From: Thermoanaerobacterales bacterium
GTDB lineage: Bacteria; Bacillota; Thermosediminibacteria; Thermosediminibacterales; Tepidanaerobacteraceae
DNA: 5,548 nt
Assembly (NCBI GenBank): GCA_012841995.1
Contig: DUTQ01000366.1
Location: 1-5,548 of the forward strand
Direction: 5' to 3'
This document shows, piece after piece, positions 1,797 to 5,462 of the stretch. The notes under the pieces were generated by a model. It had not been told where the DNA came from. It was given only the letters and a program-made list of their open reading frames with translations, and made no database searches. Numbering within the stretch: position 1 is the first letter of the stretch; the number at the start of each line of letters is the position of its first letter. A program made the position numbers and the translations under genes.

Positions 1797-2396
1797 ATGA
1801 GTGAAAAACTTCCCAATCTTACAGGATGTAACAGCCCCGAAATGTATAAATGTGCTCATCCTGCGCCTTACCCCGAAATCCGTGTGGTAAGACAAAATCC
1901 CCAATATGCAAACCTATTGCTGGAGGATTATACAGGTCAGGCAAGTGAACTTACAGCTATTACTCAATACAACTACCATCATTTTATGCTAGAGGAGGAA
2001 AACGAAGAAGCAGCTGCTCTATTGGAATGCATAGCATTGGTGGAGATGCATCACCTAGAGATACTCGCAGAGACGATATTGGCTCTTGGCGGCGATCCCC
2101 GTTATAGAACAATCAAGGCAAACGGAGAGGGAAGCTATTGGAATCCCAGCTATGTCTATTACGGTTCAGAACTCTGTGACAGAATAGCTGCTGATATTGC
2201 AAGTGAATGGGCAGCTGTAGTAAATTACCGCAAACACCAGCAAATGATAAATGACCCATATGTAAAGAAAATACTTGAGCGCATAATATTAGATGAGCTC
2301 TACCATATTGAGCTGTTTCACAAAGTAGTCAAGAAATATTGTCGTTCTTTTTTAAAAAGAGATCAGCTTAATTCAAGCACTAAAGATACTCCTTAA
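1797..2396 (+). CDS. Ferritin-like diiron protein (rubrerythrin/bacterioferritin-like four-helix bundle)
   Basis: The 199-residue protein carries the ferritin-like di-metal pattern, one ligand set per helix: E51 in helix A (QASELTAI), E83 and H86 in helix B (ExxH), E137 in helix C (ASEWAA), and E167 and H170 in helix D (ExxH). This is the E...ExxH...E...ExxH arrangement of diiron carboxylate proteins, so a cytoplasmic role in iron, oxygen or peroxide handling is likely. There is no C-terminal rubredoxin-type Cys4 domain, so it is not a classical rubrerythrin. The N-terminal 45 residues form a Cys/His/Pro-rich extension (C11, C19, H21) before helix A. I chose the ATG at 1797 because AAGGAGG ends 8 bases before it; the frame continues upstream to a TTG at 1740, but that codon is the -35 box. 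Its 3' end overlaps the converging DUF1002 gene by 24 bp. The exact subfamily and activity are not certain. Confidence 0.85.
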   Translation: MSEKLPNLTGCNSPEMYKCAHPAPYPEIRVVRQNPQYANLLLEDYTGQASELTAITQYNYHHFMLEEENEEAAALLECIALVEMHHLEILAETILALGGDPRYRTIKANGEGSYWNPSYVYYGSELCDRIAADIASEWAAVVNYRKHQQMINDPYVKKILERIILDELYHIELFHKVVKKYCRSFLKRDQLNSSTKDTP

Positions 2397-2443
2397 CCAC
2401 GCAAAAAGGCTGTTTATTGTATCCAATACTTTTTGAATTAAGC
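2366..2443. repeat. 11-bp inverted repeat across the overlapping gene ends, possible terminator
   Basis: GCTTAATTCAA (2366-2376) and TTGAATTAAGC (2433-2443) are exact reverse complements separated by 56 bases. One arm lies in the last codons of the ferritin-like gene and the other in the last codons of the DUF1002 gene. Smaller pairings are possible inside the loop, such as GATAC 2385-2389 with GTATC 2419-2423. A T-rich stretch follows the outer end of the arm on each strand (TTGTTTTC on +, CTCTTTTT on -). No ordinary terminator is visible for either gene, so this is the best candidate, though the large loop makes it weak. Confidence 0.35.
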
Positions 2444-3239
2444 CCTTGTTTTCTTCTACAGTCTCCTTTACCTTGTCAAGATTTAGATTGATTTTCTCTA
2501 GTTGTTGATTTATTTTTGCCAAATTCAGATCGAGTTTGCTGATGTTTTCCATCAACTTTAAAATTTTGTTGATTTGCTCCTCTGTAAGTTCTATGTCATT
2601 TTTTGCTGCTATTTTTTTAATTAATTCACGGATATCATCAGGGCTTTTGATTTTCTGTTTAACTACATCCTGTTTTATATCCTGAATAAGCTTTGCAGCA
2701 TTGTCTTTTCCTATTTTATCGCCCAGCTCTCCCGTCAAGACGAGTTCTTCGTTTGCTGTTTTTTTGGCTTGGGGAGAAAGTTTTCTTCCTTTTGCCTTTT
2801 CAAAAGCCTTCATAATGCCGGTAAGTGCCGCTGTTCCCGACACCTTAAAGGGGGCGGCGGCCACAACCTCAGCATCTTCAATCCCCGCAGTTATCATGGC
2901 ATTTGCGTACATCTCATCAGTAACCCAACTTATGTTATGTGTTTTAACATCTATACCTGAATTTTTTGGGGCGAGTTTTACGTATGCTGAGGATATGGCA
3001 CGTGTGCCTATCTGCTTTTCCGGTACAAGCCCCTTTAGATATTCTCTTTCCTCGTCGTTGGTTACAGTTAAAATTAGCACATCATCTTCACTGACCCCAA
3101 AAAAATCCAACATCTGTTCCTTATGAGCCTCGCTAAGGTCAGCTCCAAGGCTAACTACATCGGTTTGGTCGGCAATCGCAGGTTGACATGCCATTATCAA
3201 AAATCCGAATAAAATGAAGCAAGCCAATACCCTTTTCAT
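2373..3239 (-). CDS. Exported DUF1002 (YpuA-like) protein with C-terminal coiled coil
   Basis: The 288-residue protein matches the DUF1002 family, whose Bacillus member is YpuA. Recognisable stretches are VSLGADLS (29-36), TVTNDEEREYLKG (58-70), IGTRAISSAYV (77-87), NISWVTDEMYANA (102-114), AGIEDAEVVAAAPF (118-131) and VSGTAALTGI (133-142). The molecular function of the family is not known. The N-terminus is a signal sequence: MKR, a hydrophobic core to about residue 16, then either a lipobox-like IMAC (C18) or a signal-peptidase I site after AIA (21-23). Residues about 220-268 have Leu/Ile spaced for a coiled coil, and the tail (SLFAWLRSIF) is amphipathic. The ATG at 3239 lies 9 bases after GGAGG (3249-3253). 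An upstream TTG at 3248 abuts that site with no spacing and was rejected. The protein probably acts outside the membrane. Its 3' end overlaps the ferritin-like gene. Confidence 0.86.
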   Translation of the reverse strand: MKRVLACFILFGFLIMACQPAIADQTDVVSLGADLSEAHKEQMLDFFGVSEDDVLILTVTNDEEREYLKGLVPEKQIGTRAISSAYVKLAPKNSGIDVKTHNISWVTDEMYANAMITAGIEDAEVVAAAPFKVSGTAALTGIMKAFEKAKGRKLSPQAKKTANEELVLTGELGDKIGKDNAAKLIQDIKQDVVKQKIKSPDDIRELIKKIAAKNDIELTEEQINKILKLMENISKLDLNLAKINQQLEKINLNLDKVKETVEENKGLIQKVLDTINSLFAWLRSIFSA

Positions 3240-3395: not shown

Positions 3396-3424
3396 TAGAT
3401 TCCAAACCTTATTGTTGGTATAAT
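3396..3424 (+). promoter_or_regulatory. Extended -10 promoter for the MerR-family gene
   Basis: TGGTATAAT (3416-3424) is a perfect -10 box with the extended TGn motif. TAGATT (3396-3401), 17 bp upstream, is only a three-of-six -35 match, as is common for extended -10 promoters. The start point would be near 3430, leaving a very short leader (about 15 bases) that begins almost at the AGGAGG ribosome site (3432-3437). Confidence 0.6.
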
Positions 3425-3444
3425 GTTTGAGAGGAGGCCAGTCT

Positions 3445-4284
3445 ATGGATTTGTTATCAATTGGCGAGATGGCCGAACTAAATAACATCTCAAGACAGGC
3501 TTTACGCCTTTATGACCGCATCGGGCTTCTTGCGCCATACTACGTTGATGAAAACACCGGTTACAGGTACTACGATATCAGACAGTGTGCAAGGCTTGAT
3601 ATGATTCAGTATATGAAAGAGCTTGGAATGAGTCTTAAACAGATTAAACAGCAACTAGACTTAAAAGATATCGGTGTAATTCAGGAAGTGCTTGAAAGAC
3701 AAAAAAACCTTATTGATAAAAACATTGAGGAATTAAAACACAAAAGAAAAGCTATTTGTCGTGCTATTAAAAGCTATAACGGATATACAACTTCCCCTCG
3801 TGAAGGTGTCATAGTAATAGAACATCTCCCGCAACGAAAAATTTTATGTTATAACTGTGGCATAAACATCTATGATTATGGCATTGATACATATGAATAT
3901 ATATTAAGAGAACTTAGGGAACATATAAAATTGAACGAGCTCCCGATGGTATATTTTTGCAATGTGGGCTCAATAGTAAGGAAACAAATGCTTGATAAAG
4001 GCAATTTTTTTTCCAATGAAATTTTTCTTTTTGTCGATGATGATTTTGAAACAAATGAAGATATTGAGATAATACCTTCAGGAACCTTTGCGTGCATTTA
4101 TTTTGACAGCTTTAGTTTTTCAAAAGAAAAAAAGTACGCAAGATTACTCATGGACAACATAAAGGAGAATAAATACAAGATCATCGGAGATTATATATGT
4201 GAAGCTGTAACAGAACTGCCGATTTTTCCACAAAATGAGCGAAATATGTTTATAAAATTGCAGATACCCATTAAATTCCGCTAA
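3445..4284 (+). CDS. MerR-family transcriptional activator with BmrR/BltR-like (GyrI-like) effector domain
   Basis: The 279-residue protein has three parts. Residues 4-71 are a MerR winged helix-turn-helix: LLSIGEMAELNNISRQALRL, then YDRIGLL (23-29), the wing YRYYD (40-44) and the second helix pair LGMSLKQIKQQL (60-71). Residues about 75-110 form the long antiparallel dimerisation helix. Residues about 120-279 resemble the GyrI-like small-molecule domain of BmrR and BltR, with hallmark pieces such as LPQRKIL, IIPSGTFACIYF and the closing strand FIKLQIPI. Family members bind a dyad inside an over-long promoter spacer and, when the ligand binds, twist the DNA to activate transcription. Length is typical. 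The ATG at 3445 is 7 bases after AGGAGG; the upstream TTG at 3427 lies just before that site and was rejected. The gene ends 5 bases before the -35 box of the dehydrogenase gene, which it very probably controls. The ligand is unknown. Confidence 0.93.
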   Translation: MDLLSIGEMAELNNISRQALRLYDRIGLLAPYYVDENTGYRYYDIRQCARLDMIQYMKELGMSLKQIKQQLDLKDIGVIQEVLERQKNLIDKNIEELKHKRKAICRAIKSYNGYTTSPREGVIVIEHLPQRKILCYNCGINIYDYGIDTYEYILRELREHIKLNELPMVYFCNVGSIVRKQMLDKGNFFSNEIFLFVDDDFETNEDIEIIPSGTFACIYFDSFSFSKEKKYARLLMDNIKENKYKIIGDYICEAVTELPIFPQNERNMFIKLQIPIKFR

Positions 4285-4289
4285 CCCCC

Positions 4290-4320
4290 TTGACCTTATA
4301 CCAAATATAGGGTTTATAGT
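4290..4320 (+). promoter_or_regulatory. MerR-type promoter/operator with 19-bp spacer upstream of the dehydrogenase gene
   Basis: TTGACC (4290-4295) and TATAGT (4315-4320) are five-of-six matches to the -35 and -10 consensus but lie 19 bp apart. A 21-bp dyad at 4293-4313 fills the spacer: ACCTTATA, five central bases CCAAA, then TATAGGGT. Seven of the eight arm positions are complementary; the odd pair is T4296 with G4310. The dyad begins in the last three bases of the -35 box and ends one base before the -10 box. Length and placement match the operators of CueR, ZntR and BmrR. Transcription would start near 4327, about 30 bases before the GTG start. Confidence 0.82.
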
Positions 4321-4356
4321 TAAAATAAGTTCAATATTTTGAAAGGGGAGATATTT

Positions 4357-5406
4357 GTGAAGGAAAAGGTAAGAGTTATTCAATATGGGTGTGGCAAGAT
4401 GGGCAGGGTTTTTCTGCGTTATCTTTATGAAAAGGGAGCGGAAATAGTCGGAGCGATTGACATGAATCCCGATTTAGCTGGGAAAGATGTAGGAGAAGTT
4501 GCAGAACTAGGGTTTAAATTAAATATTCCGGTCCGCTCAGATGCAGAAGAAGTCTTTAAGGAATGTGATGCAAATGTATGTGTAATTGCAACAAGGAGCC
4601 TTATGAGTGAAGTATACGAACCATTTGAACTTGCTGCACGATATGGAGTAAATGCCATAAGTACATGTGAAGAAGCTTTCTACCCTTGGAACACATCTCC
4701 TGCTATTACCAATAAGCTGGATCGGCTGGCAAAGGATAACAACTGTACACTGGCAGGTTCCGGTTATCAGGATGTTTTCTGGGGTAATTTAATAACTGCT
4801 CTGGCAGGTGCCACACATAATATTATAAAAATTGAAGGGTCCTCAAGTTATAATGTAGAGGATTACGGTATTGCACTTGCTGAAGCACACGGTGCCGGCC
4901 TTTCTCCAGAAGAGTTTGAAGAGCAAATTGCCAAAAACGACTCCCTGCCATCCTACATGTGGAATGCCAATCAATGGCTTTGTTCACAGCTTGGGTGGAG
5001 CATAAAATCTATGGAGCAAAAGCTAATTCCATTATTCCATGACAAAGATATATATTCTTCAACTTTGAATAAGACGATAAAAGCCGGTGATGCGCTAGGC
5101 ATGTCAGCGGTTGTGACTACAGTTACAAATCAAGGGCCGATAATTGAAACACAATGTATCGGAAAGGTTTACCCAGAAGGAGAAGTGGATACAAATAAGT
5201 GGACAATACACGGGGAACCAGATACAACAATAACGGTTGAACAACCTGCAACAGTAGAGCTTACTTGTGCTACGATTGTAAATCGCATCCCACAACTTCT
5301 GATGTCACCCCCGGGATTTTATACTACGGAAAAAATGCCTCCGGCAAAATACCTTGCATATCCTATGAATATTTATGTAGATGAAGACGATATTTACTAT
5401 TGCTAA
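4357..5406 (+). CDS. ord: 2,4-diaminopentanoate dehydrogenase-type NAD(P)-dependent amine dehydrogenase
   Basis: This 349-residue protein looks like Ord, 2,4-diaminopentanoate dehydrogenase, which oxidatively deaminates 2,4-diaminopentanoate to 2-amino-4-oxopentanoate in the oxidative branch of clostridial ornithine fermentation. The N-terminal half is a Rossmann domain: VRVIQYGCGKMGR with G11, G13 and G16 of GxGxxG, and D35 at the end of the second strand (VGAID), which favours NAD binding. This half resembles dihydrodipicolinate reductase. The remainder, including GSGYQDVFWG (134-143), DYGIALAEAHGAG (169-181) and MSPPGFYTTEKMPP (316-329), fits the DAP dehydrogenase C-terminal domain. The start is GTG at 4357, 6 bases after GGGGAG (4345-4350); the TTG at 4339 lies ahead of and too close to that site. 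The gene follows the MerR gene by 72 bp and has its own MerR-type promoter. No other ornithine-pathway gene is in the window, so the family is firm but the substrate is inferred. Confidence 0.8.
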   Translation: MKEKVRVIQYGCGKMGRVFLRYLYEKGAEIVGAIDMNPDLAGKDVGEVAELGFKLNIPVRSDAEEVFKECDANVCVIATRSLMSEVYEPFELAARYGVNAISTCEEAFYPWNTSPAITNKLDRLAKDNNCTLAGSGYQDVFWGNLITALAGATHNIIKIEGSSSYNVEDYGIALAEAHGAGLSPEEFEEQIAKNDSLPSYMWNANQWLCSQLGWSIKSMEQKLIPLFHDKDIYSSTLNKTIKAGDALGMSAVVTTVTNQGPIIETQCIGKVYPEGEVDTNKWTIHGEPDTTITVEQPATVELTCATIVNRIPQLLMSPPGFYTTEKMPPAKYLAYPMNIYVDEDDIYYC

Positions 5407-5421
5407 CAATAGATTAACCTC

Positions 5422-5462
5422 AAATAAAAGGGTTTCCAAATCAGATGGAAGCCCTTTTATTT
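5422..5462 (+). terminator. Strong rho-independent terminator after the dehydrogenase gene
   Basis: A 17-bp stem pairs 5422-5438 with 5446-5462 around a 7-base loop, with a single G-U pair (T5433 with G5451). The GGG/CCC core is followed by CCCTTTTATTT, giving the U-rich tail. It begins 15 bases after the stop codon and can close transcripts from both the MerR gene and the dehydrogenase gene. Confidence 0.88.

Follow-up and report, generated by a model that had tools for sequence, protein, structure and literature searches.

Regulators of the MerR family activate transcription by untwisting their promoters, a mechanism treated as established in PMC7722741 and PMC9909328, and at the 21-bp sites of the heavy-metal subfamilies the centre lies 7 bp beyond the -35 box (PMC5045206). 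At the bmr promoter of Bacillus subtilis, BmrR controls an efflux pump, whereas the target at the locus described here is an enzyme that resembles the amine dehydrogenases. Sites of the BltR subfamily are said to have been studied by Zharov in 2011. This subfamily belongs to the same regulator class, but its targets are multidrug efflux genes (PMC9909328). On the side of the target there is a likeness to NmlR/AdhR, a MerR protein that controls aldehyde-handling enzymes and formaldehyde detoxification according to PMC9909328. MerR control of a metabolic or aldehyde-handling enzyme is thus already known, and the promoter type itself is textbook. The title of the HiNmlR entry 5d8c describes NmlR as being without a sensor domain, whereas a full BmrR-like ligand domain is predicted for the regulator of this locus, which scored 35.4 bits on the NCBIfam equivalog model for NmlR against a cut-off of 175.

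Interest in native amine dehydrogenases comes from the synthesis of chiral amines (PMC11164908). The main text of this 2024 survey of the family contains neither 'MerR' nor 'regulator'. The survey assigns the 2,4-diaminopentanoate dehydrogenase group, presumably, to ornithine fermentation, and for G1, the group whose genomic context was analysed, it reports that no clear metabolic function emerged. A cassette of two genes could have scored below the synteny score of 3 that was required there. In the open-licence literature we found no BmrR-like regulator dedicated to native amine dehydrogenases and, among the titles listed, no MerR regulator of aldehyde ferredoxin oxidoreductase.

The window is an entire contig of 5,548 bases from a 1.71-Mb genome that is 84% complete, and a Tepidanaerobacteraceae bacterium and Tepidanaerobacter are its closest named relatives at this locus. 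Read from the left, the window contains the end of a gene, an M18 aminopeptidase gene, a ferritin-like gene, a DUF1002 gene, a MerR-family gene, a dehydrogenase gene and a strong predicted terminator. The last residues encoded by the incomplete gene at the left edge resemble a motif of phosphoglucosamine mutase. The ferritin-like gene (1797-2396), with Mn-catalase/ferritin Pfam matches, and the opposite-strand DUF1002 gene (2373-3239) overlap at their ends by 24 bases, and a TTGACA-16-TATTAT box (11/12) was seen upstream of the ferritin-like gene at 1740-1767. On the plus strand, the MerR-family gene (3445-4284, 279 aa) ends with its stop codon at 4282-4284, and the dehydrogenase gene (4357-5406, 349 aa) begins with GTG at 4357. 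The dehydrogenase gene is preceded by a predicted 5' leader (4327-4356, plus strand) with a Shine-Dalgarno-like GAAAGGGGAG, its start site being a prediction from the sequence, and is followed by a predicted rho-independent terminator (5422-5462, plus strand) with a 17-bp stem, a 7-nt loop, a folding energy of -22 kcal/mol and a z of -7.3. A riboswitch or structured leader was rejected, as the window had no Rfam match at gathering scores and the fold of the leader was ordinary.

Just 3' of the MerR-family gene, a -35 hexamer (TTGACC, 4290-4295, plus strand) and a -10 hexamer (TATAGT, 4315-4320, plus strand) are separated by a spacer of 19 bp (TTATACCAAATATAGGGTT, 4296-4314), as the preliminary description had stated. 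The 21-bp dyad that it reported was also found (ACCTTATACCAAATATAGGGT, 4293-4313, plus strand). The dyad reads ACCTTATA-CCAAA-TATAGGGT, with seven of eight arm positions complementary, and its arms, its conservation and a matrix scan point to an operator. It had been said to fill the spacer exactly, which was wrong: it shares its first three bases with the end of the -35 box and stops one base short of the end of the spacer. Its centre at 4303 lies 7 bp past the -35 box, as at the 21-bp sites of the heavy-metal subfamilies, and the promoter has the layout that PMC5045206 gives for the MerR type, a 19-20 bp spacer and a palindrome between -35 and -10. A pattern derived from the site itself, with up to three mismatches, was expected 0.04 times in the window and was found at two places, each on both strands. 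When the window was scanned with a matrix from other loci, built without the window's own site, the position 4293 scored highest (20.7 bits), followed by 3406 (20.3 bits) and, far below, a next match at 7.4 bits. A generic sigma-70 scan overlooks the site at 4290-4320 because its spacers are limited to 16-18.

The conservation of the promoter was examined in dehydrogenase loci that came from the best 80 of 287 confirmed in a genome scan and from 199 related genomes. Loci were selected by a codirectional regulator homolog upstream of the dehydrogenase gene; the promoter was no criterion, and the gaps were read only afterwards. All 27 codirectional MerR-dehydrogenase loci, which range over Tepidanaerobacter, Clostridium, Paenibacillus, Bacillus and Synergistota, contained TTGAC-19 bp-TAnnnT, and at least five of the eight arm positions were complementary in 26 of them. 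These loci are not independent and hold 25 distinct promoters, each of which has TTGAC. Any other spacing from 15 to 23 was found in 0, 1 or 2 of the 27 loci, and in 200 dinucleotide shuffles the geometry appeared in 0.11 of the 27 loci on average and in 2 at most. In nine loci the TGA of the -35 box is the stop codon of the regulator, so the regulator gene and the promoter overlap there. The regulator is cut by a contig end in three loci (L032, L047 and L086), which were left out of the regulator alignments. The preliminary description had proposed a MerR-activated promoter wired to the dehydrogenase gene that follows it and had suggested looking for the dyad and the 19-bp spacing among related MerR-dehydrogenase pairs; the conservation in 27 of 27 loci supports this proposal.

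Among dehydrogenase loci, the promoter goes with the regulator. In 81 loci without a codirectional regulator, a control that includes two loci with no usable upstream sequence (L013 and L035) and 24 dehydrogenases at 28-44% identity, TTGAC-19-TAnnnT was found upstream in seven, and five of these seven also had a dyad (at least 5/8). Of the five, L006 and L008 lie by regulator remnants, L051 and L062 have a divergent MerR gene, and the match in L080 is apparently a chance one. A tblastn search (E 0.01) found regulator pieces in three of the 15 loci given (L008, L010 and L012), and by eye the bases preceding the dyad in L006 resemble the last residues of the regulator. Of the loci with decayed regulator genes upstream of the dehydrogenase, L008 retains the promoter and L010 and L012 have it in degraded form, as judged by eye. 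At E 1e-8, the genomes of L005, L006, L008 and L012 contained no regulator at any other place, and in that of L010 the sole match was an incomplete copy interrupted by a stop codon. A regulator acting in trans for L006 and L008 was rejected on these grounds. MerR control is thus dispensable for the close dehydrogenases of L005, L010 and L012, because the regulator was lost and the promoter is damaged or partial.

These loci also bear on the explanation that the dyad and the spacing have no function and were kept by close kinship alone. Several of the 27 loci are indeed close relatives, but boxes and arms persist although the distance between the genes, counted with the stop and start codons, ranges from 77 to 451 bases and the identity of the regulators to that of the window falls to 43%. 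Next to decayed regulators the promoter is damaged (L010 and L012) or reduced to half a dyad by eye (L005), although the dyad promoter persists in L006 and L008. We consider retention by kinship extremely unlikely.

A second dyad, which the preliminary description did not mention, was found upstream of the MerR-family gene (ACCTTATTGTTGGTATAATGT, 3406-3426, plus strand) and is the second match of the matrix scan. It overlaps a TATAAT of the extended -10 type (TTGGTATAAT), preceded by TTGG, and none of 200 shuffles of the upstream region reached its score. A strong upstream site was present in five of 24 loci, namely the window, L002, L004, L007 and L034, where 1 of 200 shuffles reached the site in L002 and none did so in L004, L007 and L034. 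No strong site was found in the other 19 loci tested; weak ones were seen in L030 (2 of 200 shuffles, 3.1 bits) and L011 (6 of 200, 2.5 bits). Six Paenibacillus loci, among them L011, had no strong upstream site, and three of the five loci of the window's family had none. A second operator throughout the family was therefore rejected, and autoregulation via the upstream site is not general, because the site is strong in only 5 of 24 loci. No TTGAC box was seen at the left end of the five strong sites, which argues for autorepression over activation. The position of the 3406-3426 dyad suggests that it is an autoregulatory site of the MerR-family gene, probably for repression.

Judged by its sequence, the target enzyme belongs to the native type of amine dehydrogenase. 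It shares 56% identity with CfusAmDH, an enzyme of this type, and 10 of 14 checked positions match, comprising the catalytic Glu (E105, equivalent to E108 of CfusAmDH) and 9 of 13 others; the residue roles were taken from PMC9325545. The active-site residues Q138, F141, W142, Y165, Y170, L174 and Y200 are the same as in CfusAmDH, whereas F140, T166 and S206 of CfusAmDH are replaced by Y137, S163 and A204. In the cofactor loop, D35 and N37 are identical and M36 differs.

The enzyme had been labelled as 2,4-diaminopentanoate dehydrogenase-type in the preliminary description. If it were a true 2,4-diaminopentanoate dehydrogenase (Ord) of ornithine fermentation, the regulator would sense ornithine or 2,4-diaminopentanoate. 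The window enzyme does share with Ord the Pfam domain DAP_DH_C (2,4-diaminopentanoate dehydrogenase C-terminal domain), and in Clostridium simiarum (L004:3501-6816) the cassette adjoins a true Ord gene and an ornithine racemase gene. However, the window enzyme scored 162.8 bits on the Ord equivalog model NF040740, which has a cut-off of 400, whereas the C. simiarum neighbour, a gene separate from the cassette dehydrogenase, scored 480.5. Both kinds of enzyme thus coexist in C. simiarum. Given also the positions shared with CfusAmDH, an Ord function is very unlikely. The label did not hold, and 'amino-acid dehydrogenase' should therefore be read as 'amine dehydrogenase', in view of the likeness to CfusAmDH and the failed Ord cut-off.

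The regulon looks small. Among 13 genomes of the window's family, the exact site occurred once, at the dehydrogenase, in all five genomes with a close dehydrogenase and not at all in the other eight. Of 11 genomes reached via other loci, a set without the genome of L004, eight had exactly one exact site, again at the dehydrogenase; one of these eight, G199, appears identical to G005 of the 13-genome set. Fusibacter had two exact sites elsewhere and two mismatches in its own dehydrogenase site. Two mismatches were also found in the dehydrogenase site of G208, and G209 had no exact site, its own dehydrogenase site being absent among the matches listed. In Fusibacter G207, several near-identical sites (TTGACTCTATNNTWACTATAGGG) were observed away from the dehydrogenase on contigs C3 and C10, which suggests further BmrR-type promoters.

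A close regulator (E < 1e-70) was present in 7 of 199 genomes and a close dehydrogenase (at least 72%) in 6 of 199, and all six had both. In a neighbourhood survey that used genes from a mechanical ORF picker, no other gene family recurred beside the MerR-dehydrogenase pair outside close kin. A plasmid-borne cassette was rejected, since 72,556 plasmid records contained no regulator at E 1e-30; at E 1e-60, they contained one distant dehydrogenase (36.9%). Among 198 genomes from the order to which G203 (Paenibacillus) belongs, the known G203 locus was the only match at E 1e-50, and the cassette is therefore patchy. A strictly shared history of regulator and dehydrogenase was rejected; their distance correlation was 0.74. 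The Synergistota pairs have 56% identity for the regulator and 55-57% for the dehydrogenase, and the Paenibacillus pairs have 54-56% and 74-77%. In view of these uneven identities, the regulator and the enzyme may have been re-paired in evolution; support for the deep forks in the tree of dehydrogenases is weak.

The regulator has the winged helix-turn-helix of the MerR family, with 56 bits on PF13411 (cut-off 21.6) and 38.7 on PF00376 (cut-off 28.2). Its predicted fold consists of an N-terminal winged helix-turn-helix, a coiled coil and the C-terminal GyrI-like ligand domain of the BmrR-like subgroup, and it matches BmrR over the whole length, the two proteins being about 22-23% identical in the fold alignment. 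Many homologs exist (973 proteins at E 1e-40), and the names among the best 120 are generic, with one multidrug-efflux regulator. In a phylum sample of 398 genomes, the regulator was found at E 1e-35 in 11, and in seven of these it lies beside the dehydrogenase (including G273 = L051, G301 = L009 and G345 = L014).

The remaining four genomes (G113, G243, G307 and G390) have other genes downstream. In G113, the regulator (48%) is followed by ferredoxin and aldehyde:ferredoxin oxidoreductase genes, and a promoter with TTGACT-19-TATACT and a 7/8 dyad lies directly at its end. The regulator of G243 (45%) has the same arrangement, with TTGACC-19-TATACT and a 6/8 dyad. Two regulator copies in G307 (50% and 42%) precede genes for an aldehyde dehydrogenase and a B12-binding protein, with EamA in each run; one promoter is TTGACT-19-TAAGCT (5/8), and at the other copy there are two TTTACT dyads by eye. 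The regulator of G390 (32%) precedes P-II-type genes, and there is a 19-bp dyad promoter there as well. L177:1941-5432 and L191:2488-5812 each contain a regulator ortholog, a dyad promoter, a ferredoxin gene and an aldehyde:ferredoxin oxidoreductase gene. Further downstream, L177 has a gene with a Pfam match to a solute-binding protein and genes that look by eye like those of a permease and an ATPase. In L189:4662-10619 and L190:4359-9906, from one genome, each regulator ortholog stands before genes for an aldehyde dehydrogenase and a B12-binding protein of ~590 aa, with an EamA transporter. Searches around G243 (10 genomes), G113 (4 genomes) and G307 (46 genomes) found no further aldehyde-oxidoreductase-linked regulators.

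In a tree with a midpoint root and several weak deep forks, the aldehyde-linked regulators join the dehydrogenase-linked ones, apart from two efflux-linked regulators. The ligand domains were compared by a signature of 23 positions that are invariant in the dehydrogenase-linked set. It was defined on an alignment of 22 regulators, namely the 24 complete ones minus the near-duplicates L016 and L083. These 22 keep 23 of 23 by construction, and therefore only the aldehyde-linked, divergent and efflux-linked rows serve as a test; the G390 regulator was left out of the scoring. The oxidoreductase-linked regulators, from two genomes, kept 21 and 22 positions, the aldehyde-dehydrogenase-linked ones, from two loci of one genome, kept 20 and 15, and a divergent Enterococcaceae pair kept 19 each. 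In contrast to the window regulator, two paralogs linked to MatE and EamA genes kept only 8 and 6. Cys252 is invariant in all 30 rows of the clade and is not conserved in these two efflux-linked paralogs.

These comparisons weigh on whether the regulator is a general drug sensor of the BmrR/BltR type with the dehydrogenase as an incidental neighbour. Among solved structures, BmrR and other multidrug regulators match it best, EamA transporters lie in the aldehyde dehydrogenase loci of G307, and the distant MatE-linked paralog also has a 19-bp dyad promoter, with different arms. The geometry alone does not name the ligand, because distant efflux-linked paralogs share it, nor does it mark the clade, because it is found before the MatE gene and at the G390 locus. 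A general drug sensor is nevertheless unlikely, given that the dehydrogenase is a recurrent neighbour and has the only exact operator site in eight of the 11 genomes, and given the loss of the signature in the two efflux-linked paralogs.

From the targets, we infer one ligand for the whole regulator clade, at the aldehyde/amine node, and we favour an aldehyde over an amine. An aldehyde is substrate or product of all three types of target enzyme, and the G113 regulator precedes the aldehyde oxidoreductase gene in a genome with no relative of the dehydrogenase at E 0.001, although this may be a gap, as the G113 genome is only 85% complete. Alternatively, the mechanism would be the same and the inducer would be the amine substrate, a cationic alkylamine that binds in the pocket of BmrR type and so brings about its own oxidative deamination. 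This is in keeping with the family of the enzyme, which interconverts small aliphatic carbonyls and amines (PMC9325545 and PMC11164908). The regulator also has the fold of the drug sensor BmrR, and Glu253, which is invariant in 22 aligned orthologs and aligns with Glu253 of BmrR, would be no less suited to a cationic amine than to an aldehyde. However, this Glu is possibly common to the GyrI-like fold. Little-changed ligand domains are, moreover, found before genes for aldehyde:ferredoxin oxidoreductase and aldehyde dehydrogenase, whose substrate is an aldehyde. We therefore regard induction by the amine as possible but less likely.

The idea in the preliminary description of a regulator whose ligand is tied to the enzyme was supported in spirit, and its amino-acid-type enzyme was corrected to an amine dehydrogenase. 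The preferred reading, an aldehyde or amine sensor, can be stated at two levels. For the clade, it would mean that these BmrR-like MerR proteins of anaerobes and bacilli are dedicated sensors of the aldehyde/amine node, with one conserved ligand domain and one conserved operator of 19-bp spacer type for three alternative enzymes, namely native amine dehydrogenase, aldehyde:ferredoxin oxidoreductase and aldehyde dehydrogenase; we consider the chances of this about even. For the conserved two-gene cassette of the window, the analysis showed the promoter geometry, its conservation with the regulator, a predicted BmrR-like fold, the family of the enzyme, and regulator orthologs with a similar dyad before genes of the two aldehyde-oxidising enzymes, and we think it probable that the MerR protein binds the dyad, senses a small aliphatic aldehyde or its amine, untwists the promoter and switches on the amine dehydrogenase. 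Following established MerR biochemistry, the regulator without ligand would hold the promoter closed to RNA polymerase, with a spacer 2 bp too long. With ligand bound, it would kink the DNA at the dyad centre, which would make the spacer effectively shorter and realign the -35 and -10 boxes, and transcription would start near 4327. The dehydrogenase would then convert between a small amine and its aldehyde, and the dyad over the regulator's own -10 box would, by its position, serve autoregulation, probably repression.

With a dedicated and conserved regulator, the natural role of the enzyme becomes a question for a ligand screen, as the inducer of the promoter is likely the physiological substrate of the amine dehydrogenase or close to it. 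If the proposed mechanism is true, activation by DNA distortion of the BmrR type would extend from efflux to amine and aldehyde metabolism, and the promoter-regulator pair would provide a biosensor part. If the reading of the clade is true, finding its ligand would reveal which substrate the orphan native amine dehydrogenases use in nature.
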